Shown here one piece after another: positions 1,671 through 34,700 of a stretch of 64,000 nt of DNA. The stretch is from the IMG/VR virus record IMGVR_UViG_3300035182_000347, positions 1 through 64,000 of that record; one strand, written 5' to 3'. Every line of letters begins with the position of its first letter. Position 1 is the first letter of the stretch. The stretch is from a virus. The translations under genes were made by a program, and so were the position numbers. The notes below the pieces were generated by a model that had not been told where the DNA came from, made no database searches, and saw only the letters and a program-made list of their open reading frames with translations.

Positions 1671-1740
1671 GCCCAACGCCTGAATTCAGGTGCGATGCGC
1701 GGCTTCATCGCGCAGCGTCCCATGGAATGACGAGTTAGGG
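1671..1740 (+). other. attC-like recombination site 2
   Basis: Left box GCCCAAC (1671-1677, fits RYYYAAC), left arm GCCTGAATTCAGG, an inner GCGCGGCTTCATCGCGC hairpin, right arm CCCATGGAATGACGA, and right box GTTAGGG (1734-1740). Order and dimensions (70 bp) are those of an integron attC site. Confidence 0.8.
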
Positions 1741-2399: not shown

Positions 2400-2684
2400 G
2401 TGAAGCGATTTCGCAGACCAAAACTGAAGGATGGGCAACTGCTAGTGTATTGGGGGAAGCTGCCGCACGATGAGCCGGATGTGATTTATTCGTGGCAGGG
2501 CGACAGCAGCATGAAACGAGACAATGCTCTGCTGTACTACCACTTCAGCGGCCAGCGGCCAGACCCGATGGCAAAACCGCTGTACAGCAAGATGGAACCG
2601 AGTTTGCTGGAGGAGTTGGAGCGGCGCGGATATGACCTTACGACGCTTCGATTCAGCATCATGAAGAAGACGGCTAACGCCTAG
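2400..2684 (+). CDS. hypothetical cassette protein (94 aa)
   Basis: Basic soluble protein that I do not recognise. The GTG start follows a TGGAGG ribosome binding site with 6-base spacing. The stop codon lies inside the following attC-like site (2672-2739), so the last residues (TANA) come from site DNA. No catalytic motif is visible. Confidence 0.6.
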   Translation: MKRFRRPKLKDGQLLVYWGKLPHDEPDVIYSWQGDSSMKRDNALLYYHFSGQRPDPMAKPLYSKMEPSLLEELERRGYDLTTLRFSIMKKTANA

Positions 2685-2739
2685 CTAACCGGAGCAGGCG
2701 GCTTTATCGCCTGCGTCCGTGTTGAGAGACATATTAGAG
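2672..2739 (+). other. attC-like recombination site 3
   Basis: Left box GGCTAAC (2672-2678), left arm CGCCTAGCTAACCGG, an inner GCAGGCGG...CGCCTGC hairpin, right arm GTGTTGAGAGACAT, right box ATTAGAG (2733-2739). Arms and hairpin are almost identical to site 6 at 3873-3939. Confidence 0.75.
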
Positions 2740-3336: not shown

Positions 3337-3391
3337 GCTAAAGCTGAAATCATGTGCTGCGAAGCCGTCCCGCTGGATTGAAGTGTTAGGT
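3337..3391 (+). other. attC-like recombination site 5
   Basis: Degenerate left box GCTAAAG (3337-3343), inner GCGAAGCCGT, right arm CCCGCTGGATTGAAGT, and a perfect right box GTTAGGT (3385-3391). The right half is nearly identical to sites 7 (4425) and 14 (9839). Confidence 0.65.
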
Positions 3392-3409: not shown

Positions 3410-3438
3410 TTGACACATAATTAGTTATGCGCTACATT
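3410..3438 (+). promoter_or_regulatory. sigma70-type promoter
   Basis: TTGACA (3410-3415) and TACATT (3433-3438) with a 17-bp spacer, in AT-rich DNA directly after attC-like site 5. Should drive the genes from 3487 onward. Confidence 0.7.
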
Positions 3439-3960: not shown

Positions 3961-4470
3961 ATGAAACCAAAACTTAAAACTAAGATTGTACGGGTTGAAT
4001 ATTGGGATTGCGGAAATCCTGACCACCGGCACAAGAACAAGGATGTTGCACTGGCGTGCATTGAGAAGCGCGAGGCGCGAACAACCCTGAGCACGGGCGC
4101 TCGAAAATGGACAAATGAGGCATATTCAGCAGTGCTTGCCGAGCACAGGGCCGGGTCCAGGCAATGCGACCTGGCAAAAAGCCTTGGCCTTTCCCCGGAG
4201 AGCGTGCGGAAAATACTTGCAAAGGCGGAACAACTTGAACGGGCCGTAGCATCAAATGAACCGCTTGACACGTTAAGCGTGAGAGCACGCAACTGCCTGC
4301 TGTCGCAGAACCTGCGCACGGTTGAATCGGTGCGTGCTGCGCTGGCCGCCGGAATGCTTGATGACGTGCCGAATTTTGGCGATGTGAGCAAGAGCGAGGT
4401 ACGGCGCTGGCTGTATGGGTTGCCGCCGAACGCAGAAATAAGGGGCGGCGAAGCCGTCCCGCTGGATTGA
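3961..4470 (+). CDS. zinc/HTH protein with RNA polymerase alpha-CTD-like domain (169 aa)
   Basis: Three parts are visible. Residues 14-36 (C16, H22, H24, C33) resemble a small C-x-HxH-x-C zinc motif seen in phage proteins. Residues 56-90 read as a helix-turn-helix (QCDLAKSLGLSPESVRKIL). Residues 102-152 match the alpha-subunit C-terminal domain: LSVRARNCLLSQNLRTVESV, then VPNFGDVSKSEV, equivalent to the LSVR..NCL and I.NFG.KS motifs of RpoA. A DNA-binding module joined to an alpha-CTD fold suggests a transcription regulator contacting promoter DNA or RNA polymerase. The last 14 residues are encoded by attC-like site 7. Confidence 0.65.
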   Translation: MKPKLKTKIVRVEYWDCGNPDHRHKNKDVALACIEKREARTTLSTGARKWTNEAYSAVLAEHRAGSRQCDLAKSLGLSPESVRKILAKAEQLERAVASNEPLDTLSVRARNCLLSQNLRTVESVRAALAAGMLDDVPNFGDVSKSEVRRWLYGLPPNAEIRGGEAVPLD

Positions 4471-4480
4471 CGGGTTAGAT
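4425..4480 (+). other. attC-like recombination site 7
   Basis: Left box GCCGAAC (4425-4431), inner GGGGCGGCGAAGCCGTCCC hairpin, right arm GCTGGATTGACG, perfect right box GTTAGAT (4474-4480). It shares its right two thirds with sites 5 and 14. Confidence 0.8.
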
Positions 4481-4503: not shown

Positions 4504-4821
4504 ATGCGAATTGAGAACACAGAAAAGGCTAAGGTCTTCACCGTCTTAGACGCGCCGAAGTTGGACCCGATAACGGTTTTGCTGCAAGACGTTGGCCCCG
4601 GTTGCGGGCGGCTGATCATTGAGTGCTACGGCAGCGCGTGGTCTGGCTACTGGGGCGCGATGGGCGACAGGACTTTGCTGGAGTTTCTTTCGGACTGCCA
4701 CCCCGATTACATCGCAGGGAAGATGCACCCGACCGACCGCAAGCTGAAGAAAAGCGAGGTGGCGTACATGGGGCGGATTGTCGAGGCGGTTCATTCGGCA
4801 CTGCGCTCTAACGAAGGTTAG
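4504..4821 (+). CDS. conserved phage hypothetical protein (105 aa)
   Basis: The central segment (ITVLLQDVGPGCGRLIIECY, then GSAWSGYWGAMG and DCHPDYIAGKM) looks like a conserved phage family with no assigned function that I have seen in temperate phage early regions; this is recall and cannot be checked here. No known catalytic motif. The ATG follows GGAGAT. Its stop codon sits in the minimal junction at 4806-4823. Confidence 0.65.
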   Translation: MRIENTEKAKVFTVLDAPKLDPITVLLQDVGPGCGRLIIECYGSAWSGYWGAMGDRTLLEFLSDCHPDYIAGKMHPTDRKLKKSEVAYMGRIVEAVHSALRSNEG

Positions 4822-4823
4822 GC
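4806..4823 (+). other. minimal attC-like junction (b)
   Basis: CTCTAAC-GAAG-GTTAGGC. The right box fits GTTRRRY fully. Same 7-4-7 layout as the junctions at 2366 and 7400. It spans the stop codon of the preceding gene. Confidence 0.4.
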
Positions 4824-4849: not shown

Positions 4850-5041
4850 ATGACATACCGAGTGATGGGGCAGATGGAAGACGGGCAGGACCATTGTTTT
4901 GCAGATGGATTCCGCACAGAGGAAGGCGCGTGTAAATGGTGCGACGCGAACGAACACCAATACCCAGAAACGCGACTCTTTGTGGAACGGGCTCCGACGC
5001 CTGGAGAACTGATTTATGGGCATCAATTCGACTATGCCTAA
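4850..5041 (+). CDS. hypothetical cassette protein (63 aa)
   Basis: Small acidic protein with a possible CxxC pair region (ACKWCDANEHQYPET) that could bind a metal. AAAAAGGAG lies before the ATG at 4850, which is preferred over in-frame starts inside the upstream gene. The stop codon falls in the left box of attC-like site 8. Function unknown. Confidence 0.6.
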   Translation: MTYRVMGQMEDGQDHCFADGFRTEEGACKWCDANEHQYPETRLFVERAPTPGELIYGHQFDYA

Positions 5042-5156
5042 CGCCCAGCTAACAGGCTCTGCGCGCGCCGACGATTGAAGGGTGATAAACGTGGAACAAG
5101 CGATGAAGATTGAAGAGACTGCCGGCGCAGCGTCCGCGTTGAGCGACGTGTTAGAT
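5036..5156 (+). other. attC-like recombination site 8 (long form)
   Basis: Perfect left box GCCTAAC (5036-5042) and perfect right box GTTAGAT (5150-5156), with arms GCCCAGCTAACAGG and GCGTTGAGCGACGT. At 121 bp it has a long central segment, within the range known for attC sites. Confidence 0.75.
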
Positions 5157-5173: not shown

Positions 5174-5201
5174 TTGACACTGTTTGATTGCGTGATACAA
5201 T
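5174..5201 (+). promoter_or_regulatory. sigma70-type promoter
   Basis: TTGACA (5174-5179) and TACAAT (5196-5201) with a 16-bp spacer, directly after attC-like site 8. Drives the three overlapping genes from 5232. Confidence 0.75.
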
Positions 5202-5231: not shown

Positions 5232-6290
5232 ATGACCGCCAAAAACCTGACCGCCCATGAAATCCGCGCCGCCGCCGCGTCGGTGGCTGGTGCCCGCGGG
5301 ATGGGCATCGCCACCACAGCCAGTGAGGCCGCACCGGCCCTGCTGGAGCGGGCCGAGGTGGTGCTTTCGACCATGCTGGCCCGTGCGGCCGGCATGGAAC
5401 CGTCGGCCCCTGACCAGGCTGACGAGCGGCGCTACTATGCCTACGCCGCGATGGCTGCCGCCTACATGGCTGCCATCGACGAACTCCGGGCCGCGCTTGG
5501 CCTGGAGACGCACGCGGCTATCGCCGCAGCCGCGCGTGAGGTGCGCAACCAGGCGGCGCGTGACGCTGCCGAAATCCGCGCTACGCAAGAAGTCGCGGCG
5601 CAAGCGAAAATCGCGGCGACAGAACAAGCCGCCCGCACGGCGGCGTGTGACGCCATGACCACTCTGTTCGTGGATGGTCGCGGCCAGCGTGTCGCCATCG
5701 CCGACAAAACCTCGTATTCAGAGGGGAGGTTTTCAAGCCTTGGCGGCTGGAACGAAGGCGGCGACGTAATTGGCCGCCGCATGAGCATGACGGCCGAAGA
5801 CGGGCGGGACGTGACCGGCGAGGTCGTAGTTATGCCCGATGGCGAGTTTCGCCTGGAGCAGCCCTACTCCCGCTCATACCCCAATGGGGGCAAGTCCTGG
5901 CACGGTGGCAAGCTGGTGACTGTAGATACCACCGCCACCAGCGAGTGGCTGCCGGAAGGCGCGGTAGTGCCTGAGTGGCGCTCCGAGTCTCGGGTTGCAT
6001 GCGACTGGGAAGCAGCCTACCAGGCGCGGGCCGACGAAGTCATGCTTGCCGACCTGGAAGCCATGCCGGAAGCGTGGTTGCAAGGGCGGGCCAGGCTGGT
6101 AGAGGCGTTCTCCGCCGACTATTCCGCCACCTACGGCGGCCAGAACGGGCGGAAATACTCCGTGCGCACAGAATTACGCGCCGACCTGGACGAGTACCAG
6201 GCGGTACAACGCGCCGCCGATGCGGAAAAGTCCGCCCGGATGGCATCTTCACCTTTCGCGGCGCTTGCCGCACTACGGAGAGCAGCATGA
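5232..6290 (+). CDS. hypothetical Ala-rich protein (352 aa)
   Basis: Unrecognised. Residues 1-140 are very Ala-rich and probably form long helices or a coiled coil (REVRNQAARDAAEIRATQEV). Residues 145-240 are beta-rich with many Gly, and the C-terminal 110 residues are helical again. A promoter (5174-5201) and an AAAGGGG ribosome binding site precede it. Base composition is visibly more GC-rich than neighbouring cassettes, as it also is in the two following overlapping genes, suggesting the trio was acquired as a unit. Confidence 0.6.
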   Translation: MTAKNLTAHEIRAAAASVAGARGMGIATTASEAAPALLERAEVVLSTMLARAAGMEPSAPDQADERRYYAYAAMAAAYMAAIDELRAALGLETHAAIAAAAREVRNQAARDAAEIRATQEVAAQAKIAATEQAARTAACDAMTTLFVDGRGQRVAIADKTSYSEGRFSSLGGWNEGGDVIGRRMSMTAEDGRDVTGEVVVMPDGEFRLEQPYSRSYPNGGKSWHGGKLVTVDTTATSEWLPEGAVVPEWRSESRVACDWEAAYQARADEVMLADLEAMPEAWLQGRARLVEAFSADYSATYGGQNGRKYSVRTELRADLDEYQAVQRAADAEKSARMASSPFAALAALRRAA

Positions 6291-6721
6291 GCATCATCAA
6301 TCTGACCCAGCACCCCGCTACGCCGGAGCAAGTCGCGGCGGGCGTATTTGATCTGCCGCCGAATCTGCGCGGAGACCTGTCCGCGCTGCTTACCTTTGAC
6401 GCCATCCCCGGCGTCGAGGAAATCAAGGTCCGCGCCCACGACATCGGCCTGATGGCGGCGATGCTCGCCAGTGGTGCGGATCGCACCGAGGAAGTGGACG
6501 GCGAGGTAGCGGACACCGACAGGGGCGCGTTTGCGCTGCAAGCCATGATAGGCGGCGCCCCCTACCTCATGGCCCCGCTTGAATCCGCCTTGCGCGAGAA
6601 CGGCATTGAGCCGGTGTACGCATTCTCGGTACGCGAAAGCGTCGAGCAGACCCAGCCGGATGGCACTGTGCGCAAGGTCAACATCTTCCGCCACGCCGGG
6701 TTTGTTCCGGCTGTGGCGTGA
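6287..6721 (+). CDS. conserved hypothetical protein, NLTQH-type (144 aa)
   Basis: Begins MSIINLTQHPATPEQVAAGV. I associate this opening with a conserved alpha/beta family of phages and plasmids that has no firm function. A central hydrophobic segment (IGLMAAMLASGA) and a late MIGGAPYLMAPLESALRENG, then VYAFSVRESVE, suggest a Rossmann-like fold. The ATG overlaps the stop of the preceding gene (ATGA), indicating translational coupling. The same GTGA-type coupling links it to the next gene. Confidence 0.6.
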   Translation: MSIINLTQHPATPEQVAAGVFDLPPNLRGDLSALLTFDAIPGVEEIKVRAHDIGLMAAMLASGADRTEEVDGEVADTDRGAFALQAMIGGAPYLMAPLESALRENGIEPVYAFSVRESVEQTQPDGTVRKVNIFRHAGFVPAVA

Positions 6722-6932: not shown

Positions 6933-7166
6933 ATGGAACCAAAGATTGATATTGAACCAGACGCATGGGCAACGAAAGATATGTGCATAGGGCCGCATTT
7001 AGGGAATGTACGTTACGACAAATTACCTATTCAAAGTTTCAACCCGTTGCAATACACCCATGAAAAACTCTACTCAGAGAAAGCGGTAATTGGCTTGATG
7101 AAGGCCGCTTACTATGATGGCTACACGGAACGAGAGCAGGAATTAAGGGCGGTGCCGAACGCCTGA
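6933..7166 (+). CDS. hypothetical cassette protein (77 aa)
   Basis: Unrecognised. The second half (FNPLQYTHEKLYSEKAVIGL, then MKAAYYDGYTEREQEL) resembles small phage proteins that end in a YxxGY..R helix, but I cannot name the family. AAAGGAGAAG precedes the ATG. The last residues are encoded by attC-like site 9. Confidence 0.6.
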   Translation: MEPKIDIEPDAWATKDMCIGPHLGNVRYDKLPIQSFNPLQYTHEKLYSEKAVIGLMKAAYYDGYTEREQELRAVPNA

Positions 7167-7217
7167 ATTAACCGGACGCCGCTTTAGCGGCGGTCCGAGT
7201 TGAATGAAATGTTAGAA
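7154..7217 (+). other. attC-like recombination site 9 (classical)
   Basis: Left box GCCGAAC (7154-7160), left arm GCCTGAATTAACCGG, hairpin CGCCGCTTTAGCGGCG, right arm GAGTTGAATGAAAT, right box GTTAGAA (7211-7217). The arms closely resemble my memory of the aadA-type attC (TTGAACGAATTGTTAG). It is one of the clearest copies in the window. Confidence 0.85.
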
Positions 7218-7292
7218 CTGACGACTGCACACTGTTTTAAGGTGGCGTACCACCTGACATTCACGGATCGTATGCCGTGGAGAGTTCGATAA

Positions 7293-7445
7293 ATGACCGG
7301 GGAATCCACGTTTACGGTCAGCCGAAATGCCAGAACGCGAGCCGCAAGGCAGCGCACCAAAACTGGCCGGTGCGGACGATGGCAGTGTGCAGCCATGAGT
7401 TCTAACGCGGGTTATCCGCCACCCATGGAAGCGCGGCAACACTGA
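7293..7445 (+). CDS. possible small basic protein (50 aa)
   Basis: Short open frame in the 292-base stretch between the genes at 6933 and 7459. It is Arg-rich, with GGAGAG about 8 bases before the ATG. The minimal junction at 7400-7417 lies inside it. Weak evidence: it may be only a chance frame. No other gene is seen in this stretch. Confidence 0.3.
   Translation: MTGESTFTVSRNARTRAARQRTKTGRCGRWQCAAMSSNAGYPPPMEARQH
7400..7417 (+). other. minimal attC-like junction (d)
   Basis: TTCTAAC-GCGG-GTTATCC. Same 7-4-7 layout as the junctions at 2366 and 4806, upstream of the next cassette gene. Confidence 0.35.
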
Positions 7446-7458
7446 AAAGGAAACAACG

Positions 7459-7821
7459 ATGCGCGAACTGAACGAACACAAGATTAACCCCGGCAACGAC
7501 ACGCTCAAGATTACCGTGCTGGACGAACCTGGGCACGGTGGCGCAAACCACGCCTACGATATTGAGGGCGGCGAGGCGGTGCCGACACACCTGCGCTTTC
7601 AAAACGGACCGATCAACGCGGACGGTAACGGCGTGAATGGCATTACCCATGAGGCGCTGCTCGTGGTGCTGTGCGACCGCCTGCGCGGGTTTCAGGCGGG
7701 GCCGTATGCCTGCAAGGCGAACGCTTGCGCGCTGACACACTTGGAAGAAGCGCAACACTGGTTGCAGCAGCGCACCATCGAGCGTATGCGGCGAGGCGTC
7801 GAAGGCACGCATACGGTTTAA
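7459..7821 (+). CDS. Acb2/Tad1-like cyclic nucleotide sponge, putative anti-defence protein (120 aa)
   Basis: Residues 63-120 form a predicted helical hairpin: THEALLVVLCDRLRGFQAGP, YACKANACALTHLEEAQHWL, then RTIERMRRGVEGTHTV. From memory this pattern, ending RGVEGT, is that of the Acb2/Tad1 family, which sequester cyclic oligonucleotides or gcADPR made by CBASS and Thoeris. Residues 15-50 are beta-rich (LKITVLDEPGHGGANHAYDI), so the layout is closer to two-part Tad1 than to shorter Acb2. AAAAGGAAAC precedes the ATG. It sits alone in a cassette, as expected for a mobile counter-defence gene. Recognition is by motif, not by search. Confidence 0.6.
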   Translation: MRELNEHKINPGNDTLKITVLDEPGHGGANHAYDIEGGEAVPTHLRFQNGPINADGNGVNGITHEALLVVLCDRLRGFQAGPYACKANACALTHLEEAQHWLQQRTIERMRRGVEGTHTV

Positions 7822-7838
7822 TTTTGTGGGCCGCAGAT

Positions 7839-7857
7839 GGCCTTCTCTCTGCGTTTT
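7839..7857 (-). repeat. inverted copy of the AAAACGCAGAGAGAAGGCC repeat
   Basis: GGCCTTCTCTCTGCGTTTT is the reverse complement of the first 19 bases of the 40-bp repeats at 11600 and 12650. It lies in the 3' region of the Tad1-like cassette, just before attC-like site 10. Confidence 0.7.
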
Positions 7858-7879
7858 TCGCAGCCTTTCGGCCAGCGGC

Positions 7880-7937
7880 GGCTAACGCCTGAGTTCAGGC
7901 GCGGCCGGAGGCTGTCACCTGGAACGACGGGTTGTGC
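7880..7937 (+). other. attC-like recombination site 10
   Basis: Left box GGCTAAC (7880-7886), left arm GCCTGAGTTCAGG, right arm CACCTGGAACGACGG, right box GTTGTGC (7931-7937). 58 bp. Confidence 0.7.
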
Positions 7938-7964: not shown

Positions 7965-8735
7965 ATGAACAGAATTGTTTGCCAGTTTTCCTGCGGCGCT
8001 GCCTCGGCGGTGGCGACTAAGTTGGCGCTTTCGCAGTACGGCGACCGCTGCGTGGTGCTGAATGCCTACATTGCAAACGAGCATGAGGACAACCGCCGCT
8101 TTGCCGCCGACTGCGAAAAGTGGTTTGGGCGTACGATGACCGTACTGCGTGACGAGAAGTACGACGCGGACGCTATCACTGTTTTTGAGCGGGTCGGCTA
8201 CATCAAGGGGCCGAAGGGCGCGGCATGTACCACCAGGATAAAGCGGGGTTTGCTTCGTGCGTTTGCGCAACCCGGAGACGTGCTAGTGCTCGGCTACACG
8301 GCGGAGGAACAGTGGCGATTTGACGACTTTGAAGCCAACTGGCCCGACCTCCCCGTAGTGGCTCCTCTGATCGAGCGCGGACTGACCAAGGAAGACTGTA
8401 AGGCGCTTGTTGAGCGCGCAGGGATGGTGCTGCCGATGATGTACCGGATGGGCTACGACAACGCCAACTGTATTGGCTGCGTAAAGGGCGGGCTTGGGTA
8501 CTTCCGCGCAATCCGCGATGACTTCCCCGATCAGTTCGAGCGGTTGGCGCAAGCGGAGGACAAGGTTGCCGAACTGCATGGAACGAACGCCTACATCCTG
8601 CGCCACCGATCCGGGCCGCTTAAAGGGCATAGGTTCCCGTTGCGCGAGTTACCACCGGGTCCAATTGTAAGAAACGAGGCGCTACCGTCATGCGGGTTGT
8701 TTTGCGATGCAGCAGAGCAGGAATACGCGGCATGA
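7965..8735 (+). CDS. PP-loop / PAPS reductase family protein (256 aa)
   Basis: Alpha-hydrolase (PP-loop) fold. The N terminus has a strand followed by FSCGAASAVATKLAL, a variant of the SGGxDS loop that binds the ATP pyrophosphate. Further on, CTTRIKRG and a GYTAEEQWRFDDFE segment fit the PAPS reductase/DndC-like group. Cys pairs (CIGCVKGG near 170 and CGLFC near the C terminus) may bind a metal or iron-sulfur cluster. Candidate roles are nucleotide or DNA sulfur chemistry or another adenylation step; the substrate cannot be told. GGAGAAAGAAG precedes the ATG. It is a single-gene cassette between sites 10 and 11. Confidence 0.7.
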   Translation: MNRIVCQFSCGAASAVATKLALSQYGDRCVVLNAYIANEHEDNRRFAADCEKWFGRTMTVLRDEKYDADAITVFERVGYIKGPKGAACTTRIKRGLLRAFAQPGDVLVLGYTAEEQWRFDDFEANWPDLPVVAPLIERGLTKEDCKALVERAGMVLPMMYRMGYDNANCIGCVKGGLGYFRAIRDDFPDQFERLAQAEDKVAELHGTNAYILRHRSGPLKGHRFPLRELPPGPIVRNEALPSCGLFCDAAEQEYAA

Positions 8736-9838: not shown

Positions 9839-9895
9839 GCCTAACGCCTGAATTCAGGGGCGGCGAAGCCGTCCCGCTGGATTGACGTGTTAGGG
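9839..9895 (+). other. attC-like recombination site 14 (classical)
   Basis: Perfect left box GCCTAAC (9839-9845), left arm GCCTGAATTCAGG, hairpin GGGCGGCGAAGCCGTCCC, right arm GCTGGATTGACGT, right box GTTAGGG (9889-9895). 57 bp; near-identical right part to sites 5 and 7. Confidence 0.85.
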
Positions 9896-9914: not shown

Positions 9915-10421
9915 ATGGGATACGGAGCACACGAAAAACCGAACGAAGGCGCGACCAATATTTGGCTCACACCACCGCGCATTATTGAAATGCTTGGGCC
10001 TTTTGACCTTGACCCATGCGCAGCACCGGAGCCGCGACCGTGGCCGACAGCACACGCGCACTATGCCGAGGCAGACGGTGATGGGCTGCAACGGGAATGG
10101 CATGGGGTTGTGTGGGTGAACCCGCCATACGGCGACAAGGCCGAGGCGTGGCTGCACAGGCTGGCTAGGCACGGAGAGGGCATCGCGCTGGTTTTCGCCA
10201 GGACGGAAACGGCATGGTTTCAGCGCGTAGCGCGGCACGGCTGGCTTTTGTTTTTCCCGTCAGGGCGGCTGACCTTTCACAAACCGAATGGAGAGCGCGG
10301 GGTCGGTAATGCAGGGGCACCGAGCGTTTTCCTTGCCATTGGCGAGGAAAGCAAACTGCGCCTGAGAAGCTGCGGGATGGAAGGGTTCTTCTGCGAGCCT
10401 GAGTTTTTCGCGACGCAATGA
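9915..10421 (+). CDS. phage N6-adenine DNA methyltransferase (168 aa)
   Basis: Matches the short phage Dam family. WLTPPRIIEMLGPFDLDPCA (residues 17-36) holds the AdoMet-binding DP.A motif, VWVNPPYG (67-73) is the catalytic NPPY, and LFFPSGRLTFHKPNG (about 112-126) is the conserved C-terminal strand. Such enzymes methylate adenine, usually GATC, and protect phage DNA from restriction. Length is normal for the family. GGAGAAG precedes the ATG, and attC-like site 14 lies immediately upstream. Confidence 0.85.
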   Translation: MGYGAHEKPNEGATNIWLTPPRIIEMLGPFDLDPCAAPEPRPWPTAHAHYAEADGDGLQREWHGVVWVNPPYGDKAEAWLHRLARHGEGIALVFARTETAWFQRVARHGWLLFFPSGRLTFHKPNGERGVGNAGAPSVFLAIGEESKLRLRSCGMEGFFCEPEFFATQ

Positions 10422-10666: not shown

Positions 10667-11416
10667 ATGAAAGTCGAAATCAAAAGTCGTTTTACAGGCG
10701 AGGTTCAATTCGCACTTGAGTGCGAAGGGAACACTGTGGCCATTACGCTGGCCGAGGCCGTAAGGTTAGGCACCAACCTGTATGGCGCATACCTTAGCGG
10801 CGCGGACCTTAGCGGATCGTCACTGGGGGGCGCAAATCTTCACTGTGCGAACTTGATGGGCGCTAGCCTTATGGACGCGGACTTGATGTCCGCGGACCTC
10901 TATGGATCTGATCTCAGCAGTGCGTCCCTTGAGGACGCGAATCTCAATGGCGCGAACCTTAGGTCTGCGAATCTTTATGGGGCCTACATGAGGTCCGCGA
11001 AACTTCGCAATGCAAACCTTAGCAATACGAACCTTATGGACGCGGACTTGATGTCCGCGGATTTGGTTGCCGCCAATTTGTACGGTGCGGACTTTGTCAG
11101 TGCGAACCTATCTTGGGTGGATTTGCAGGACGCAAACATTGATGGCGCGGACCTTAATGGCGCGATCCTTAAGGGTGCCAATCTTGATGGCGCGTCCATC
11201 GGGGACGCTGGTAAGCTGACTGGCGAAAGCCCGTATTTCACTGTTATCTTTGGAGTTAATGCGGAACGCATTGAGTCGTTTCGCACAGAGAAGGGGATTT
11301 TTATCCGCAGCGGGTCATTCTTTGGCACTGCGGCGGATTTCCGGGGCAACAACCCCGCCGGCGGAGTGTACCAGGCCGCCTTGGACCTGGTTGAAGCCCA
11401 TTATCGGCTGGTCTGA
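10667..11416 (+). CDS. pentapeptide-repeat protein (249 aa)
   Basis: About residues 40-175 are A(D/N)LxG-type pentapeptide repeats (for example LSGADLSGSSLGGANL), which form a right-handed quadrilateral beta-helix. The flanks are a 35-residue N-terminal beta domain and an 80-residue C-terminal domain. Such helices often mimic DNA duplexes (as in Qnr or MfpA) or are scaffolds; neither can be chosen here. The C-terminal TAADFRGNNPAGGVYQAALD segment recurs in phage proteins of this type by my recollection. Expression is probably controlled by the inverted repeat at 10598. Confidence 0.8.
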   Translation: MKVEIKSRFTGEVQFALECEGNTVAITLAEAVRLGTNLYGAYLSGADLSGSSLGGANLHCANLMGASLMDADLMSADLYGSDLSSASLEDANLNGANLRSANLYGAYMRSAKLRNANLSNTNLMDADLMSADLVAANLYGADFVSANLSWVDLQDANIDGADLNGAILKGANLDGASIGDAGKLTGESPYFTVIFGVNAERIESFRTEKGIFIRSGSFFGTAADFRGNNPAGGVYQAALDLVEAHYRLV

Positions 11417-11465: not shown

Positions 11466-11666
11466 ATGAGAGTGAAAACTTCAAAGTATAGGGTGGCGGC
11501 TCTGCGAAAGCGGGCCGCCGCGATTGGCCTGAAGCGCCGTGAAATCTATTCGCATGAGGATGACTGGCCAGCAATTAAAGCGCTGGCAGAATATCTTATA
11601 AAACGCAGAGAGAAGGCCGCGAAGGTGGCGGATAACGCCAATTTAACCATTACCAATTTCACTTAG
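11466..11666 (+). CDS. small basic hypothetical protein (66 aa)
   Basis: Highly basic helical protein: VAALRKRAAAIGLKRREIYS followed by HEDDWPAIKALAEYL. It may bind nucleic acid, but I cannot name the family. Start is uncertain between ATG 11466 and GTG 11472. The 3' end carries the 40-bp repeat also found at 12650, where it is fused to an attC-like site. Here the equivalent site is lost, leaving only a GGATAAC box. Confidence 0.5.
   Translation: MRVKTSKYRVAALRKRAAAIGLKRREIYSHEDDWPAIKALAEYLIKRREKAAKVADNANLTITNFT
11600..11639 (+). repeat. 40-bp direct repeat, copy 1
   Basis: Begins AAAACGCAGAGAGAAGGCC and ends GGATAACGCC. It is 39/40 identical to 12650-12689 and codes for the C terminus (KRREKAAKVA) of the 66-aa protein. 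Confidence 0.85.
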
Positions 11667-12641: not shown

Positions 12642-12734
12642 ATGCCTCAAAAACGCAGAGAGAAGGCCGCGAAGGTGGCGGCTAACGCCCAAGTCACAGG
12701 CGCGGCGGCATCATCGACGCGTCCTGTAGACTGA
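12642..12734 (+). pseudogene. gene-tail remnant attached to an attC-like site (30 codons)
   Basis: A 30-codon frame whose first part (KRREKAAKVA) repeats the C terminus of the protein at 11466-11666 at DNA level (39/40 bases). There is no ribosome binding site, and the rest runs through attC-like site 15. It is best read as the 3' end of a deleted cassette that kept its recombination site, rather than a functional gene. Confidence 0.5.
12650..12689 (+). repeat. 40-bp direct repeat, copy 2
   Basis: Same sequence as 11600-11639 with one difference (GGCTAACGCC instead of GGATAACGCC). This copy restores a proper left box and leads into attC-like site 15. Confidence 0.85.
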
Positions 12735-12744
12735 CGTGTTATGC
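12680..12744 (+). other. attC-like recombination site 15
   Basis: Left box GGCTAAC (12680-12686), left arm GCCCAAGTCACAGGCG, right arm CGTCCTGTAGACTGACGT, right box GTTATGC (12738-12744). 65 bp; resembles site 12. Confidence 0.75.
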
Positions 12745-14630: not shown

Positions 14631-15448
14631 GTAAGGTGAACGCATCAGACGTTTCAACCGAAGTCGAGGCTGAAATCGGCCTTCCGGTGTTGGTCGACAA
14701 CGCCGTGGATTTGGTATTTAGAGGACCGGACGGGGCCATCGATCAGGCCCTTGCTACAGCCGACCGCTCAGCGGCCATGAACGCAGGCGACCGTTCGAAG
14801 GCCACGAACATAGGCGTCCGCTCGGCTGCCGTGAACATGGGTGACCATTCGGTTGCCATTAACGCAGGCGACCGTTCGACGGCAATAAACACTGGAGACC
14901 ACTCAGAGGCCATGAACATGGGCTACCAATCGTCGGCCATGAATATGGGAGAATTTTCTGCGGCCACGAACACGGGAGAACAATCTGTGGCCATGAACAT
15001 TGGCCGCCACTCAGCGGCCATGAACACGGGCTACTGGTCGACGGCCATGAACGCGGGCGAATATTCGGAGGCCACGAACACTGGCAGCTACTCGGCTGCC
15101 GTGAACACTGGCGACCAATCGGTTGCCATGAACGCAGGCTACCGTTCGACATCCATGAACACGGGGGAATACTCAACGTCCAAGAACGAAGGCGACCAGT
15201 CGTTTGCCCTGAACACGGGCTACCACTCGGTAGCCGAGGTGATGGGCACCGGTTCGGTCGCGGCATCCCTTAGCGCCCAAGGGCGCGCCCGCGCTGCCGC
15301 TGGCGGCGCAATCGTCCTCTGCTACCGCGACGAGATTAGCGGTCGCCTAATCAATATCCGCGCCAGCATAGTTGGCGAAAATGGCGTCAAGCCGGACACC
15401 TGGTACGTTCTCGACGCCGCTGGCGGATTTATCGAGGTTACCGAATGA
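14627..15448 (+). CDS. 9-residue tandem-repeat protein (273 aa)
   Basis: About residues 46-205 contain roughly 18 tandem units of 9 residues with the pattern xxSxAxNxG (for example DRSTAINTG, EYSEATNTG), predicting a Ser/Asn-stacked beta-helix or YadA-head-like rod. A C-terminal cap follows (GGAIVLCYRDEISGRLINIR, then GENGVKPDTWYVLDA). This layout resembles phage repeat proteins of unknown function. CAAGGAGAGAACC precedes the ATG. It could be a structural or ice-binding-like rod. No signal peptide. Confidence 0.7.
   Translation: MSKVNASDVSTEVEAEIGLPVLVDNAVDLVFRGPDGAIDQALATADRSAAMNAGDRSKATNIGVRSAAVNMGDHSVAINAGDRSTAINTGDHSEAMNMGYQSSAMNMGEFSAATNTGEQSVAMNIGRHSAAMNTGYWSTAMNAGEYSEATNTGSYSAAVNTGDQSVAMNAGYRSTSMNTGEYSTSKNEGDQSFALNTGYHSVAEVMGTGSVAASLSAQGRARAAAGGAIVLCYRDEISGRLINIRASIVGENGVKPDTWYVLDAAGGFIEVTE
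14764..15240 (+). repeat. 27-bp coding tandem repeats (9 aa units)
   Basis: Degenerate 27-base periodicity encoding xxSxAxNxG inside the gene at 14627. About 18 units, diverged at DNA level but with conserved AACA-GGC triplets at the Asn-x-Gly positions. Confidence 0.8.
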
Positions 15449-15916: not shown

Positions 15917-16420
15917 ATGCCAAAAATAGTTAGATTCGACAAGGATGAAGCCCTTACCGACTGGAAAACCGGGAAATATACGGTACGCGATCTTGCGTCT
16001 AAATATAAGGTTTCACCGGGCACAATCCATAAGCTCGTTGTCGGAGTAGACAAGTCACTAGCCCCTTTAATAAACAAAGCAGTTGAAATAAAACAAGAAC
16101 TTACAAATTTTAATGAACGGGAGATAAACAGATTTGAACAAGAAGTAAGCGAGCGTACAAAACACATTCAATTCTTCACCAGCGCTAACGCACTGATTGC
16201 CAAGACGGTCATCAATAAAGTGCAGGCGGATGGCGATGAAGCCAGCTATCAGGACTTGAATGCAGCGGCCAATGCCATCACCAAGGCCCAAGAGAATGTT
16301 CTGGGCAAGCAGCCGGATAGTGTGGTCAATGTTGGGGTGACGCAGCGGACGGTGATTCAGTCGGCAGATCGGGTGCGCGAGATTCGACAAAAGCTGATAA
16401 GGGACATCTGTGGCGAGTAG
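15917..16420 (+). CDS. terminase small subunit-like protein (167 aa)
   Basis: Probable DNA-recognition subunit of the packaging motor. Residues 10-45 form a helix-turn-helix (YTVRDLASKYKVSPGTIHKL), residues 50-80 a long charged helix, and the C-terminal part is helical for oligomerisation. Assigned from this layout and from its position: the large subunit starts inside its 3' end (11-base overlap). Length fits small terminases. Confidence 0.75.
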   Translation: MPKIVRFDKDEALTDWKTGKYTVRDLASKYKVSPGTIHKLVVGVDKSLAPLINKAVEIKQELTNFNEREINRFEQEVSERTKHIQFFTSANALIAKTVINKVQADGDEASYQDLNAAANAITKAQENVLGKQPDSVVNVGVTQRTVIQSADRVREIRQKLIRDICGE

Positions 16421-17966
16421 CCTTTCGGAAGAGGATGAGATTCTGCGGGTAATGCTGCTGGATGACTTCCAGCTATTCGTCGAGTATTTCTTCCGGGCGC
16501 AGTACGGCCGGCGCTTTGTGGTGGCCGAGCATCATGCGCAGATTACTGAGGCATTGACGCGGGTGGCGGCCGGAGAGTGCAAGAGGCTGATTATCAATAT
16601 CCCGCCTCGCGCCGGAAAGACTGAGATTGCCGTCAAGATGTTCGTCGCTTGGTGCCTGGCGCACAATCCGGCGGCGAAGTTCATCCACCTTTCGTACTCC
16701 GATGACCTAGCACTGGACAACTCCAGCTCGATTCGGGACGTGGTGAAGTCTGCCGAGTATCAGAAGCTCTTTCCGATTGCGCTCAAGGCTGACTCTGACA
16801 GCAAAAAGAAGTGGCTGACCAATGAGGCGGGCGGCATGTACGCGACGGCGGCAGGGGGCGCGATTACCGGATTCGGAGCGGGATTGATGCACCGAATCAG
16901 GACGGGAACGGAATGCGCGGCGGATGGATTTGGCGGCGGAATTTTAATTGACGACGCCTTGAAGCCAGATGATGCGTACTCGGAAACCGTGCGCGGCCGT
17001 GTTAATAATCGCTTCAACAACACCATCGCCAGCCGGGTGAATAGCCCGGATACGCCGATTGTCGTGGTCATGCAGCGGCTGCACGAAAACGACCTGACCG
17101 GCTATCTACTGGCCGGTGGAAGTGGCGAGAAATGGGAGCACCTGTGCATTCCGGCGATCAATTCGCATGGTGAGTCAATTTGGCCAGACAAGTGGTCGAT
17201 TGAACGGCTGCGGCAGATGGAAGCGGCAGACCCTTATACCTTCGCCGGGCAGTACATGCAGGTGCCGTCGCCACTTGAGGGGGGATTATTCAAGCCTGAC
17301 AACATCGCCATCATTCTGGTATTGCCGGTTGAGTCAATCGAATGGGTACGCGGTTGGGACTTCGCCAGCACCACGACGGGCGACTGGACGGCGGGCGTAA
17401 AGTTGGGCAGATTGCGCGAGGGCCGATTGATTATCGGCGATGTGGTGCGCATTCGCGTGGGTCCGGACGAACGCGATGCCGCGCTACTACATACGGCGGC
17501 GCGAGATGGCTATGAGTGCAAGCAATCCATCCCCCAAGACCCTGGGCAAGCCGGCGTAACGCAGGTCAAGTACCTCTTGCGCCAACTGGCCGGGTACAGC
17601 GTCAAGTCAAGCCCGGAGACGGGTAACAAGGTGGTGCGCGCCGAGCCGGTAGCGAGTCAGGTCAATGTCGGCAACGTGATGATGCTCAAGGCCGAGTGGA
17701 ATTCGGCGTTGATCAACGAAATGCGCATGTTCCCCAATGGTACATGGGACGATCAGGTCGACGGTCTGAGCCGGGCGTTCGGTCTGCTGATCGGGCGCAA
17801 CCCGTCAGAGATATTCATCCCTGACACCAGCATCAAGGATGTCATTGCGGCGGCTGGGACGTGTGGGCGGTGCGCGTCATTCGGTGATGGCATGTGTAAA
17901 GAGAACTTCGGACTACAGGTAGGCGCATCGGATATTGGGTGCGGGATGTTCATTGCGGGGTGGTAG
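16410..17966 (+). CDS. terL: terminase large subunit (518 aa)
   Basis: ATP-driven DNA packaging motor and nuclease. Walker A is IPPRAGKTE (about residues 62-70), Walker B ILIDDAL (about 178-184), and the ATPase coupling motif is in VVVMQRLHENDLTGYLL. The nuclease domain starts near EWVRGWDFASTTTGDWTAGV, whose WDxA is a metal-binding acid motif. The C terminus has an extra Cys cluster (CGRCASFGDGMCKENFG ... GCGMF) that looks like a zinc site and is unusual for this family. The GTG start overlaps the small subunit gene. Confidence 0.9.
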   Translation: MASSLSEEDEILRVMLLDDFQLFVEYFFRAQYGRRFVVAEHHAQITEALTRVAAGECKRLIINIPPRAGKTEIAVKMFVAWCLAHNPAAKFIHLSYSDDLALDNSSSIRDVVKSAEYQKLFPIALKADSDSKKKWLTNEAGGMYATAAGGAITGFGAGLMHRIRTGTECAADGFGGGILIDDALKPDDAYSETVRGRVNNRFNNTIASRVNSPDTPIVVVMQRLHENDLTGYLLAGGSGEKWEHLCIPAINSHGESIWPDKWSIERLRQMEAADPYTFAGQYMQVPSPLEGGLFKPDNIAIILVLPVESIEWVRGWDFASTTTGDWTAGVKLGRLREGRLIIGDVVRIRVGPDERDAALLHTAARDGYECKQSIPQDPGQAGVTQVKYLLRQLAGYSVKSSPETGNKVVRAEPVASQVNVGNVMMLKAEWNSALINEMRMFPNGTWDDQVDGLSRAFGLLIGRNPSEIFIPDTSIKDVIAAAGTCGRCASFGDGMCKENFGLQVGASDIGCGMFIAGW

Positions 17967-28704: not shown

Positions 28705-31700
28705 ATGCTCAATTCAGCGAACGTCAGAATTATCCTGGTCATCAAGTCGCAAGGCATGCTCTTCGACATGCCGATTCAAGTTGGCTCATCCGTCGATAAG
28801 CATGGTCGCTTCCGGCAGGCGCACACCCGCATTCAAAAGGTGCGCGCAAAAGAACTTCCTAGCGTGCGGGAGCCCATCGCTGAAGAAATAAAGCCGAATA
28901 CGCGGCTGGCTGCGTGGCTCGATAAGCATGGCGGAATTGGATCGGTAGCGAAGATCGTCGCCGAAGCTCCAGATGCCGCGCAGGCCAAGATGATTGACCT
29001 CATGGCGGGCGTTGGCAAACTTACTCCGGAGCAAGCGCGCAAGCTGCTCGATAGCGCCATACCGAACGACAGCCAGGCGGATTTGTTTGCTCAGGCACCA
29101 AAAGCAACTGATGGGACGGACGATCTGTTTTCTCAGCCAGCAACCGTCAAGGGCAAGTGGAAACTGAAGTCCCCTCCTCCCGCAGAAGAAAGCCATGCTC
29201 AAGCCACCGAAGCCATCGAAACAGAACCGCCAAAAGCGCCCGAAGAAAAACCCGCCGCAAAGCTGACGGAAGCGCAAAAAGTCGGCGCTGGCGAGACGGC
29301 AAAGCTCGACTATGAAGGATTCCGCAAAGAGTACGAGGAGCTTTTCAATCGCATGATGTCCTACTCGCCCAATGAAGTAGGGTCTGGCATCTATGCGGAT
29401 AAAATGGCGAAGCTGTCTGATGATTACCCGGAGTTCATGGATCGGTTCGACCGCAACGACGATGAGATTCATAACCTGAAGCGCATCAAGGCCATCAATG
29501 AGCGGCAGGGGCTTGATCTTGATGTTGCTGGGATGGCATCTCAAACACTGAAGGAAAGCGGGCGATTGCCCGAGGTATTTGCTGATGTACCAAGCGCACA
29601 ACCAGTAACGGCACCGCCTCACGGCGAGGCCATCCAATTCGGCGTCCAGGCCGGCATCACCAAGCAAGCCAGGCGTGACCTGAATGCGCAAGCCGTAGCC
29701 ATCGTGCAGCGCGGCGGACCATTCTCAGATGACGACAAAGCCATCTTGCGGCAATACTCCGGAAACGGCGGCTGCGGCGATTCGCTCAACGAGTATTACA
29801 CTCGGCAAGACGTGGCCGCGGCCATGTGGGTGGCGCTGCAAAGCATGGGCGTGATGGGCGGCAGCGTATTGGAGCCGTCGTGCGGGCCCGGTGTGTTCCT
29901 GCATACCGCGCCGAATAGTTTCAAAGTCACTGGCGTAGAAATGGATGGCGTTTCGGCACAAGTGGCGAAAGCCCTGCATGGTGACCGCCATGAAATCCAG
30001 AATGCCAGCCTGGAGCGCTTCGCCGTACAGGATAACAGGCAGTTTGATGCCGTCATCGGCAATGTGCCATTTGGCTTGCGTGGCAGTCTGATCAGGGATG
30101 ACAAGCCGCACCTGAAGACCGCCGAAGCCTATTTCTGCGACACGGCCATGGACAAGTGTAAGGCAGGCGGCATAGTGGGCCTGATCGTCCCTACGGGCGT
30201 TATGGATTCGCGCACTAATCGCAAGTTGCGCGAAATGCTGCTGCGCAAGGGTCAGTTTCTCGGCGCGCAGCGCATGCCCAATACGGCATTCGAGCATGCG
30301 CATACCGAGGTGACTACGGATATTATCTGGCTGCGCAAGTATCCAGACGACGTATCCGGGGCGCTATCAAGTTCGCCAGTCGGTCAATCGCAACTCAAGT
30401 CACTGGGCATTTGGGATGATGAGTTCCTGTCCGGAAGCTACTTCACCGGGCGCGGAGCAGCGAACATTCACGGCAGTATGGAAGCTGGCTGGCGGGCCAA
30501 GGCTGGCATTGGCGCGGACATTACCGTGACCGGATCAATGAAAGATGTGGCCGACTCGCTGGCGATGTTCAAGCCGGAAGTGGCGGCGAAAATTCCCACC
30601 GTGCCAGATATTATGGATGCCGTAGGCGCTGACGAGAAGGCGCGGGCAAAGGTGCTGGGCGCAACCATGACGCGCCCTTACGAGAAGCAAGGTAAAGCGG
30701 GCGATACGAAGACAGTCGACGGCATCGCCTATGTACTGCAAGGCCGCCCGCTGCGCTGGCACCGTGTGGATGAGGTGGTACAGTCCGAGGCGCTGATACA
30801 GGGGCGGGATATTGCGGCACGTATCGAAACGTTGATAGCCGGAAGTGCGCCAGTTGATCGGGACCAACTGCAAAAAGACCTGCATGCCTGGGTGGCTGCG
30901 CATGGTGTTCCGGCGAAGAACAAAGATGTTCTGCTTGGCGCGCAACAAGACAAGTCGCTATACCGCCTGATTGGTGCCGTTAATAGCCAGGGTGAGCTAT
31001 CCGATTGGGTGACCGGCAAGGCGGCCAAAAAGGTCGCTGGCAATTTCGAGGCGACGGTGCAATCCCTGCTGAATGACCATGAAACTGCCGCCGTGCGCAG
31101 CATCGCACTGTCGGCCGGCATCCATGAAGAGGAGGCACTAGACCAGCTCTATGGCTCACCCAAGTACGCGATTGACCCAGCAACAGGCGAATGGACTACG
31201 CAGGACATTTACCTGTCTGGCGACTTGTGGGCAAAGTCAGATGCCGCAAAGGAATCGCTGACCAATATCGACCTAGCCCCGGAGATGCGCAGCAAACTGG
31301 AAAAGCAGTCCGCGATGCTGATGGAAGCGATTGCACCGGTCTCGCTGGAAGATGCATTCATTCAGGTGAATTCTGCTTTCCTGCCAACGTCGATTCTCTC
31401 ATCCTTCCTGACGTGGCGAAACAAGGAAGGACCGCAGGCGAGAGATTGGTCAAAATCCCTCGATCCGGTCGAGGTGACATTTGCGGATGGCGTCTACACC
31501 ATCGAAGGCGGCAACAAGTGGGGCATGCAGAAAGACCTCGACAAGTACCTGAACCGCACCGGCCTGCGCAAAGACGATAAGCACACCATTGATGACCTGA
31601 ATGTTGAATTCAAGGAATGGCTTTGCGCATCGCCGCAGTACCGCGAGCAAGCTGAAGACCTCTACAACCGAAAGTTCAGAGGGTTTGCTGAGCGTGAGTT

Positions 31701-34700
31701 CAGTAATGAGCCGATGGACATTCCGGGGATGAATACGGAAGGGTTGAAGGATTACCAATGGGGAACGCTGCGCTGGGCGCTGAATGCCGGCAAGGGGATC
31801 ATCGCCAGCGACGTGGGACTCGGGAAGGCCCAGCCGCTAGACGCGAAGATTCTGACGCCAACTGGCTGGAAGTTGATGGGGGAAATGCGCGTCGGAGACG
31901 AAGTGATTGCTGGCGACGGAACAGTGACGCATGTGACTGGCGTATTCCCGCAAGGCGAGAAAGAGATATTCCGCGTCACCATGTCGGACGGGGCGACAAC
32001 CGAGTGCTGCGATGAGCACTTGTGGCTTACCCAGACCACAAAAGAACGCAACAACGAAAGGCGCAGACTTGGCGAAAGCGGGAAGCCAAAAGTCCGCCAG
32101 CTATCAGATATTCGCGCAACGCTGCAAAACCTTGGACGAGAGAAGAATCACGCCATCCCAATGATTGGGCCGGTTGAATTTGCAGCCCGCGATGTGAAGA
32201 TTGACCCGTATCTGCTTGGCGTTCTCATAGGCGACGGGAGCCTCGCTAGATGCACCCCGCAGATAAGCAACCCTGAGCCTGGAATTATTGAGGCGTTGCG
32301 CGATAAGTTGCCAGATGGATACGCGCTCAATAAGCAAGCAACAAATGGCGATAGATGCGCCTCATACAACCTATGTAAGTCTGGAACAAATACGCTCCCG
32401 AGGAATGGCTTTACGTCGTCCATAGAGGGATATGGCTTAAATAAATTGAGCAACGGGAAGTTTGTCCCAGATGACTACAAGTACAACACAAGCGATGTTC
32501 GCGTAGCCATACTTCAGGGGCTAATGGATACCGATGGGTACGTCGACCGTAGGGGCGTGACCGTGCAATTCACCTCAGTTTCTGAGCGCCTAGCAAATGA
32601 CGTGAAGTTTTTGGTGAACAGCATCGGCGGGAATGCGACTATCAAGAGCAAGATTCCGACATTCACCTACAAAGGCGAAAAGAAGCAAGGCCAGCGTGCC
32701 TACACGGTACATCTTCGCCTACCTCCTTCAGTCTCTCCGTTCCTGCATAGCGTGAAGCGGGAGAGAGTCGTTCCGAAGAGCAAGTATCGGCCGGTACGGT
32801 ACATCGTTGCCGCCGAATCAGTTGGTATGAAGCTGGCTCAGTGCATCGCTGTCGCACATGAAAGCCACCTGTACGTCACCGATGATTTCATCGTCACACA
32901 CAATACCGTCGCATCGCTCATGCTGGTCAAGACGCTGGTCGCAACAGGCCAAGCCAATCGCCCGATGATTGTCGTGCCTAAGTCGGTGCTGTCCAACTGG
33001 GCCGCCGAAGCTGAAAAGTGGTTTCCAGGCAGCAAGGTTCTGCTGATTGGTGCTGATGGCGATAATGCCCAAGAGCGTAAGCGCAAGTACCACGACATGC
33101 AGCAGAATCACTACGACTTCATCATTGTGTCCGAGCCGTCGTTCGAAGAACTTGATCTTGATCCGGCGACCAAGGTCGAATACAACGCTAGAGATTTTTG
33201 GGTACAGCGCGGCGACAGGCTGGGGAGTGCAGGAGACAAGCGAACCAACAAGATCAGGGAAGCCTGGAATCAGTCGCGCGCCGGGCAGGAGTTCAGCGGG
33301 AAGGATAGAACGGACGCGACCTACTTCAACCAGATGGGCGTGGACGCCATCGTATATGACGAAGCGCACCATACAAAGAACCTTGTTGGCGTGAAGTCCC
33401 GCTTTGGTGAGTCTCCGAAGTATCTCGGTGGCGGCGGGCTATCGATGCGCTCGCTCGACTTCAATCTTAAATCGCGCTGGCTGATGGATCACAACAACGG
33501 CAAGAACGTGTTTTTGTGCACGGCAACGCCTACCAAAAATAGCCCACTGGAAATATTCAGCATGATCTCGCATGTTGCGCCAGAGTTATTCGAGCGAATC
33601 GGCGTGCGCAACAGCGAGGAATTTCTCGACCGCTTTGCAAAATTCGAGAACGGCATGGCGCTGGACACGGGCGGCACAATGAAAGAGGCGCTGATTACCG
33701 CTGGCTTCCAGAATATGGACGAGCTGCGCGCCATCATGAAGCGTGCGATTCGGCGCAAGACGGCCGATGACGTTGGCCTCAAGCTCCCGCAACGCCAGGA
33801 CGTACAGCACATGATCCAGATGGACGACGCCCAGCAGGCCAAGTATGCTGAGTTGCGTGAGTTAGCGGCGGAGGCTGGCAGCAGAGACGCGACGGGCGAC
33901 TCGCACATTTTCAGCATCATGGACAAGATGAACAAGGCGGCGACGGATATGTCTTTGCTTGATTCCGACTACGATGCCACCAAGTCACCAAAGTACGTCG
34001 CCTGTGCTGCCGAGATTGTCAAAAACATGAAGGACGGCGGACAGATCGTGTTTTCAGATTACGTCGACTCGCACGAAAAGATTGCGGCGGCACTGGTGGC
34101 GTCCGGCATTCCGCGCAAGCAGATCGGCATCCTCAACGCCAAGGCGGCATCCTCGTCGGAAAAACGCCAGAAGATTGCCGACGACTTCAATGCCGGAAAG
34201 CTGCGCGTGGTGATCGGCAACACGGCGGTGATGGGAGAGGGCTTGAACCTGCAAAAAGGCACCAGCGATATTCACCACCTCGACCTGCCATGGGAGCCAG
34301 CCTCGATGCAGCAGCGCAATGGCCGCGGCTTGCGGCAAGGAAACACCAATGCCGGCGTGCGCATCCATAACTACTTGGCGCGCGGCAGCTTTGACGGTTA
34401 CCGCCTGCAGGCCATCATGGCGAAAAAGGATTGGCAGGACGCGGTATGGAATGGCGGCAATGAGGTGGAAAACCTCAACAAGCAAGACATCAATCGCGAA
34501 GAGCTGATGATCATGCTGGCCGCTGACCCAGATCAGGCCCGCGAAGCCTACGAGTCGAATAACAAAGACAAGGAGGCGCGACTGATTGCCGGCAAGACGG
34601 CAGAGTCGGCGCAGCGCTTCGACAAGTTTCAGGAGATCAAGCGCAGTTTCAATGCCATCAAGGACAAGGATACGCAAAGCGCCATACGACTCAAGGCCAA

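Follow-up and report, generated by a model that had tools for sequence, protein, structure and literature searches.

A predicted Tad1-type signal sponge gene on a putative integron gene cassette shared by phages

Bacterial integrons carry anti-phage defence cassettes. Integrons, as well as clusters of attC sites lacking an integron integrase gene (CALINs), also occur in phages: according to Qi et al. 2023 (PMC9892861), IntI1 recombines phage attC sites and methyltransferase cassettes are proposed to act in counter-defence. Signal sponges form another group of counter-defence proteins, and two of their families, Acb2 and Tad1, are relevant here; Acb2 is without an N-terminal beta-sheet (PMC12043709). 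In this report we describe a tad1 gene in a 64-kb stretch of viral DNA (positions 1 to 64,000 of IMG/VR record IMGVR_UViG_3300035182_000347, hereafter the window; the record has 69,432 bases). We consider it highly probable that this gene encodes a Tad1-type sponge, that it is carried on an integron gene cassette and that the cassette is moved by an integron integrase.

A Tad1 homologue encoded in the window

The gene was noticed in an earlier inspection of the letters and open reading frames (ORFs) alone, hereafter the original prediction, which took its product for a probable Acb2/Tad1-type sponge with a helical hairpin and an RGVEGTH ending.

7459 to 7821, plus strand: tad1, encoding a 120-amino-acid Tad1 homologue with an N-terminal beta domain and a C-terminal helical hairpin (by sequence match and predicted fold)

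Both features are present, since the protein ends in RRGVEGTHTV and long helices are predicted at residues 64-80 and 86-111, and the family can be narrowed to Tad1. The best PDB sequence matches are solved Tad1 chains (phmmer, E 3e-17, residues 23-119), PHROG 2428 matches strongly (2e-32), and the experimentally named Tad1 of Bacillus phage SBSphiJ7 is 40% identical over 94 amino acids (E 8e-23). An AlphaFold model built on 36 homologues (predicted local distance difference test, pLDDT, 87; predicted template modelling score, pTM, 0.74) has strands at residues 2-4, 17-20, 32-36 and 43-46, and its two long helices make up the hairpin. The fold check suggested by the original prediction returned Tad1 structures only: all 20 Foldseek matches below 0.001 are CbTad1 or CmTad1 (7uaw, E 1.4e-8), and Acb2 structures are absent from the matches. 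An Acb2 protein would be short and helical, without an N-terminal beta domain, whereas beta strands are predicted here within residues 2-46; by sequence and modelled fold the ORF is therefore assigned to Tad1 rather than Acb2, and the Acb2 half of the original prediction is set aside.

The window protein is 43% identical to CbTad1 over the aligned part, and of the 34 family-invariant positions that can be aligned to CbTad1, 26 are identical. F78, N88, R105 and R109 are invariant in the 36 homologues and identical in CbTad1, where their counterparts (numbered after removal of one N-terminal tag residue) are F82/N92 and R109/R113, which we take to be contacts for gcADPR and cyclic trinucleotides. 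The window Tad1 would oligomerise during infection and bind the cyclic ADP-ribose signals of Thoeris without degrading them; cyclic di- and trinucleotides of CBASS would probably be bound too, likewise undegraded, and with the signals sequestered the abortive-infection effectors of the host would stay off. It is unlikely that the target of this Tad1/Acb2-like sponge has shifted, for example to the cyclic nucleotides of CBASS only or to another signal, away from the gcADPR of Thoeris. Such a shift would fit the level of identity to CbTad1 and the variable range of cyclic dinucleotides among Tad1 homologues (PMC12043709, a review), but binding of gcADPR and cyclic trinucleotides is conserved among these homologues (PMC12043709), and the fold predicted for the window protein, together with many of its invariant residues, is shared with gcADPR-bound CbTad1.

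Cassette boundaries and attC sites

The immediate surroundings of tad1 comprise the following elements.

7158 to 7215, plus strand: complete attC upstream of the tad1 segment, whose bottom strand folds; crossover G7211/T7212 (33.5 bits, E 3.2e-9)
7216 to 7402, plus strand: gene-poor leader that separates the complete attC from the tad1 cassette; an ORF at 7293-7445 reads into it
7400 to 7417, plus strand: stemless attC remnant TTCTAACGCGGGTTATCC directly before tad1, not a full site
7412 to 7458, plus strand: 5' leader of the tad1 cassette, with the ribosome-binding region AAAAGGAAACAACG
7822 to 7885, plus strand: hairpin following the tad1 stop codon and preceding the R'' box, a likely terminator (structure read from the sequence)
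7881 to 7936, plus strand: attC of the tad1 cassette; crossover G7931/T7932 (attC model, 30.4 bits, E 2.9e-8)

Sites were located with a model of 18 aligned attC-like sites, all taken from other contigs, and the window was scanned without filters. The model is sequence-only because stem lengths vary, so that RNAalifold found no consensus structure for the sites. A strict regular expression and a scan for R''/R' complementarity had missed most sites and were replaced by the model; within an array, the R'' and R' of a site stem from different cassettes, which explains the misses. Rfam gave no match here. Nine window matches reach E < 3e-4; they all lie on the same strand, at 1.7-12.7 kb, and by eye several further, more degenerate sites can be recognised. 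The two sites flanking tad1 are far beyond chance, and the upstream one (7158-7215) has a single-stranded DNA fold z of -3.6.

Between these two sites tad1 is the only sizeable ORF, as expected from the original prediction, which had placed it alone in a cassette; a 50-amino-acid ORF at 7293-7445 runs into its leader. The order of ORF and then attC (7881-7936), the R''/L''...L'/R' layout and the G/TTRRRY crossover are those of a gene cassette. The leader segment (7216-7402) is bounded by 24-nt inverted repeats (7211-7234/7383-7406), and homology to other tad1 cassettes begins within the stemless remnant, at G7411/T7412. In the strict sense the tad1 cassette thus spans 7412-7931; a dead remnant would extend the movable unit to 7212-7931. 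Every tad1 cassette read has a hairpin, varying in sequence, before its attC. As cargo of such a cassette (crossover, leader, ORF, hairpin and attC), tad1 would belong to an array in the early region of the phage, and an integron integrase acting on the folded bottom strands of attC sites would bring about cassette gain and loss.

Further stemless remnants of the form CTAACG..GGTTA, with the hairpin missing and both outer boxes kept, occur at 2371-2386 and 4808-4823, and such remnants may lock cassettes in place. A 40-nt element stands before attC-like boxes in two copies (98%; 11600-11639 and 12650-12689), and 20 nt of its inverse complement sit in the 3' hairpin of tad1 (7839-7858).

The tad1 cassette in other phages and an integrase gene beside one copy

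Relatives of Tad1 are encoded on 48 other viral contigs. The nine closest (L002-L010) are 94-99% identical in Tad1, three of them (L007-L009) sharing one protein sequence, and all nine have attC sites, either in the retrieved DNA or at the edge of the cassette; the attC model gave no match for the other 39, more distant, contigs. The attC-associated proteins lie on one side of a single branch, as one clade, in 92% of bootstrap trees. In comparisons of the window with L002, L003 and L005, identity is 55-65% in the 60-nt stretch that precedes the crossover (58 +/- 4% at random), 85-91% in the tad1 leader, 89% in the ORF and 53-70% downstream of the R'' box. DNA homology is thus limited to the cassette and starts at the G/TT crossover, while the flanks differ and the backbones are those of unrelated phages. 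The carriers include Phabquatrovirus-like phages (sheath 67% in G006 and G007, terminase 74-75% in G007 and G008), one that has a portal gene and whose terminase is unrelated (G004/L005), phages with NinB or DnaB (DnaB/NinB in L006) and one with an integron integrase gene, intI (G009). Occurrence of the same cassette in different phages and between different flanks argues that it is mobile as a unit, and it seems that phages exchange a counter-defence gene in the form of a ready-made module, much as the original prediction had envisaged for cassette exchange.

The tail sheath of the window phage is 68% identical to that of Bordetella phage vB_BbrM_PHB04, a 94-kb Phabquatrovirus, and the record is therefore likely to represent part of the genome of a related myophage. 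No attC of the window type was found in this isolated relative (82 of 94 kb scanned). It is highly improbable that the record is an assembly chimera, in which a bacterial integron fragment was joined to a phage contig. Metagenomic origin would allow for such an artefact, as would the lack of a second contig across the window's tad1 junction, but the left flank of the array recurs at ~95% in independent contigs (L051/L057), there with a different array and without tad1, and tad1-attC arrays are seen again in a number of phage contigs that also encode terminase, portal, NinB or replication proteins. Moreover, the cassette-borne clade was found neither in the sampled bacterial genomes (the best of four matches is 67% identical) nor in plasmids.

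In G009 (L010/L116/L125) an intact intI lies one ORF downstream of the tad1 cassette and adjoins RusA. It scores 466 bits against a cut-off of 265, and its best PDB match is IntI4 (E 1e-91).

L116, 6645 to 7661, minus strand: intI, intact integron integrase

The same intI, at 100% identity, is present in four other viral contigs, five in all (L125-L129), among which L125 and L128 form a near-identical pair: they agree at 99.9% over 5.2 kb upstream and at 100% over 1.3 kb including intI, and between these parts L125 has 2.77 kb with tad1 where L128 has ~0.37 kb in which no gene is obvious. The breakpoints are an attC R'' box (GCTAACG) and AAC/TTAAATTCGACG, 63 nt before intI. We read the pair as gain or loss of the tad1 stretch, with no direction implied; it is a natural comparison. 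Three kinds of upstream sequence all join at this AAC junction, which may be a collapsed site or an attI-like one. A phage-type integrase is encoded in L128 as well, which suggests a temperate phage.

Several observations weigh against a Tad1 cassette moved by an integrase in the window phage. A search of the 69-kb record for intI (TIGR02249) found none, although the record is probably incomplete; the window array, without intI and attI in one element, is a CALIN and not a complete integron. The stemless site just upstream of tad1 may mean that the cassette is locked in this phage. The arrays were assembled from metagenomes, and no contig was found that independently spans the window's own tad1 junction. 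As to the protein, PF24729, the Pfam model of the Acb2/Tad1 hairpin, gives 17.6 bits against a cut-off of 27, which SBSphiJ7 Tad1 passes with 34.2 bits; the profile check that the original prediction had called for thus succeeded with PHROG 2428 and fell short with Pfam. Because PF24729 also matches 33 of 36 relatives weakly, we read the low score as limited sensitivity of the model, the cut-off being a detection threshold and not a defining property.

The missing intI and the stemless remnants would also fit ordinary phage mosaicism, that is, homologous or illegitimate recombination through the short homologies of attC sites, which would then be passive remnants without integrase action; such routes are suggested for phage CALINs by Qi et al. 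(PMC9892861). We regard this explanation as quite improbable, since homology edges fall at the G/TT crossover in several independent contexts whose attC flanks differ in sequence, an intact intI adjoins one tad1 array, and near-identical phages differ exactly in the array. Under the favoured reading, movement by an integron integrase, the enzyme would be supplied to the window phage in trans, from the host or from a co-resident phage.

Neighbouring cassettes and comparison with described systems

The remainder of the array and the phage backbone contain the features below.

1672 to 1738, plus strand: attC array site (attC model, E 1.1e-6)
2673 to 2730, plus strand: attC array site (attC model, E 2.4e-4)
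3338 to 3390, plus strand: attC array site (attC model, E 1.3e-8)
4429 to 4478, plus strand: attC array site (attC model, E 2.7e-13)
5037 to 5154, plus strand: long attC array site; L'-R' end 5126-5154 strong (E 2.7e-4), R'' end 5037-5083 weak (0.21)
6287 to 6721, plus strand: cassette ORF, 144 amino acids, C-terminus like ring nuclease Csx20; candidate second anti-signal gene
9840 to 9893, plus strand: attC array site (attC model, E 5.5e-15)
12681 to 12744, plus strand: attC array site (attC model, E 1.9e-5)
16410 to 17966, plus strand: phage terminase large subunit; the backbone is preceded by the attC array

The original prediction also proposed the neighbours of tad1 as anti-defence candidates, and one of them provides a lead. 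The ORF at 6287-6721 resembles Csx20, a confirmed cyclic tetra-adenylate (cA4) ring nuclease (PMC12409355), in PADLOC (E 1e-6) and in NCBIfam NF040559 (E 9.5e-7), where its 29 bits lie below the cut-off of 70. Its fold search gave no match under 0.001, and the weak top matches include cA4-bound Cam1, a SAVED protein and the ring nuclease Sso2081; it is a possible second anti-signal gene near tad1. The cassette after tad1 contains a phosphoadenosine phosphosulfate (PAPS)-reductase-like ORF (7965-8735) with a weak SspD match, and DNA methyltransferases are encoded at 368-1057 and 9915-10421. Sigma-70-like promoters are found at 1767-1794, 3410-3438 and 5174-5201 (12, 10 and 11 of 12 matches, respectively); they begin ~20-30 nt past the attC crossovers near 1738, 3390 and 5154, and some cassettes therefore seem to bring their own promoter. 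The array region further includes a pentapeptide-repeat protein (10667-11416), and 27-nt repeats encoding MNTGD/S-type nonapeptides are present at 14729-15273. Judged by eye, a 2456-amino-acid methylase/helicase-like ORF (28705-36075) appears to have an intein-like insert that breaks its helicase motif region.

With the tad1 cassette, phages would have a concrete route by which a counter-defence gene can be taken up in pre-packaged, modular form, and phage attC arrays become a place to seek further anti-defence genes. The near-identical pair and the phage-borne integrase make the idea directly testable. A broader proposal, which we hold tentatively and at slightly less than even chance, is that phages run an integron system of their own, in which attC cassettes are reshuffled among unrelated phages, virulent as well as temperate, by an IntI that is either phage-encoded or borrowed, with a shared pool that includes Tad1 and perhaps a Csx20-like ring nuclease. 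If true, this pool would mirror the anti-phage defence cassettes of bacterial integrons.

The Tad1 family is already known, and so are attC arrays in phages (Qi et al. 2023, PMC9892861). In a search of literature with few subscription journals, we found no paper that places a signal sponge, or any other anti-signalling gene, on a phage cassette. What would be new, read from sequence comparison, is that a signal sponge gene is carried by a cassette which has spread between phages and one copy of which lies next to a phage-borne integrase. The window protein is like the known Tad1 proteins (CbTad1, 7uav/7uaw/8smd; CmTad1, 8kbb-8kbd; SBSphiJ7 Tad1) in sequence, domain layout, predicted fold and residues of the putative pocket region, but differs in its shorter beta-domain loops, its score below the Pfam hairpin cut-off and its location on an integron cassette. 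With Acb2 it has in common the C-terminal hairpin domain (PF24729) and the sponge principle, whereas the N-terminal beta-sheet predicted for it is absent from Acb2 (PMC12043709). The G009 intI matches IntI4 (2a3v) and the TIGR02249 integrases over its full length; it differs from them in its place in a phage early region, where it has the cassette array on one side and a gene for RusA or SSB on the other, and the genes of the array read towards it. The phage CALINs of Qi et al. (PMC9892861), which belong to virulent phages while complete integrons belong to temperate ones, are attC arrays without intI, as in the window. The available text of that paper mentions no signal sponge. In the present case a single cassette can be followed through unrelated phages, two near-identical phages differ by its gain or loss, and intI is located within the early region of a phage.
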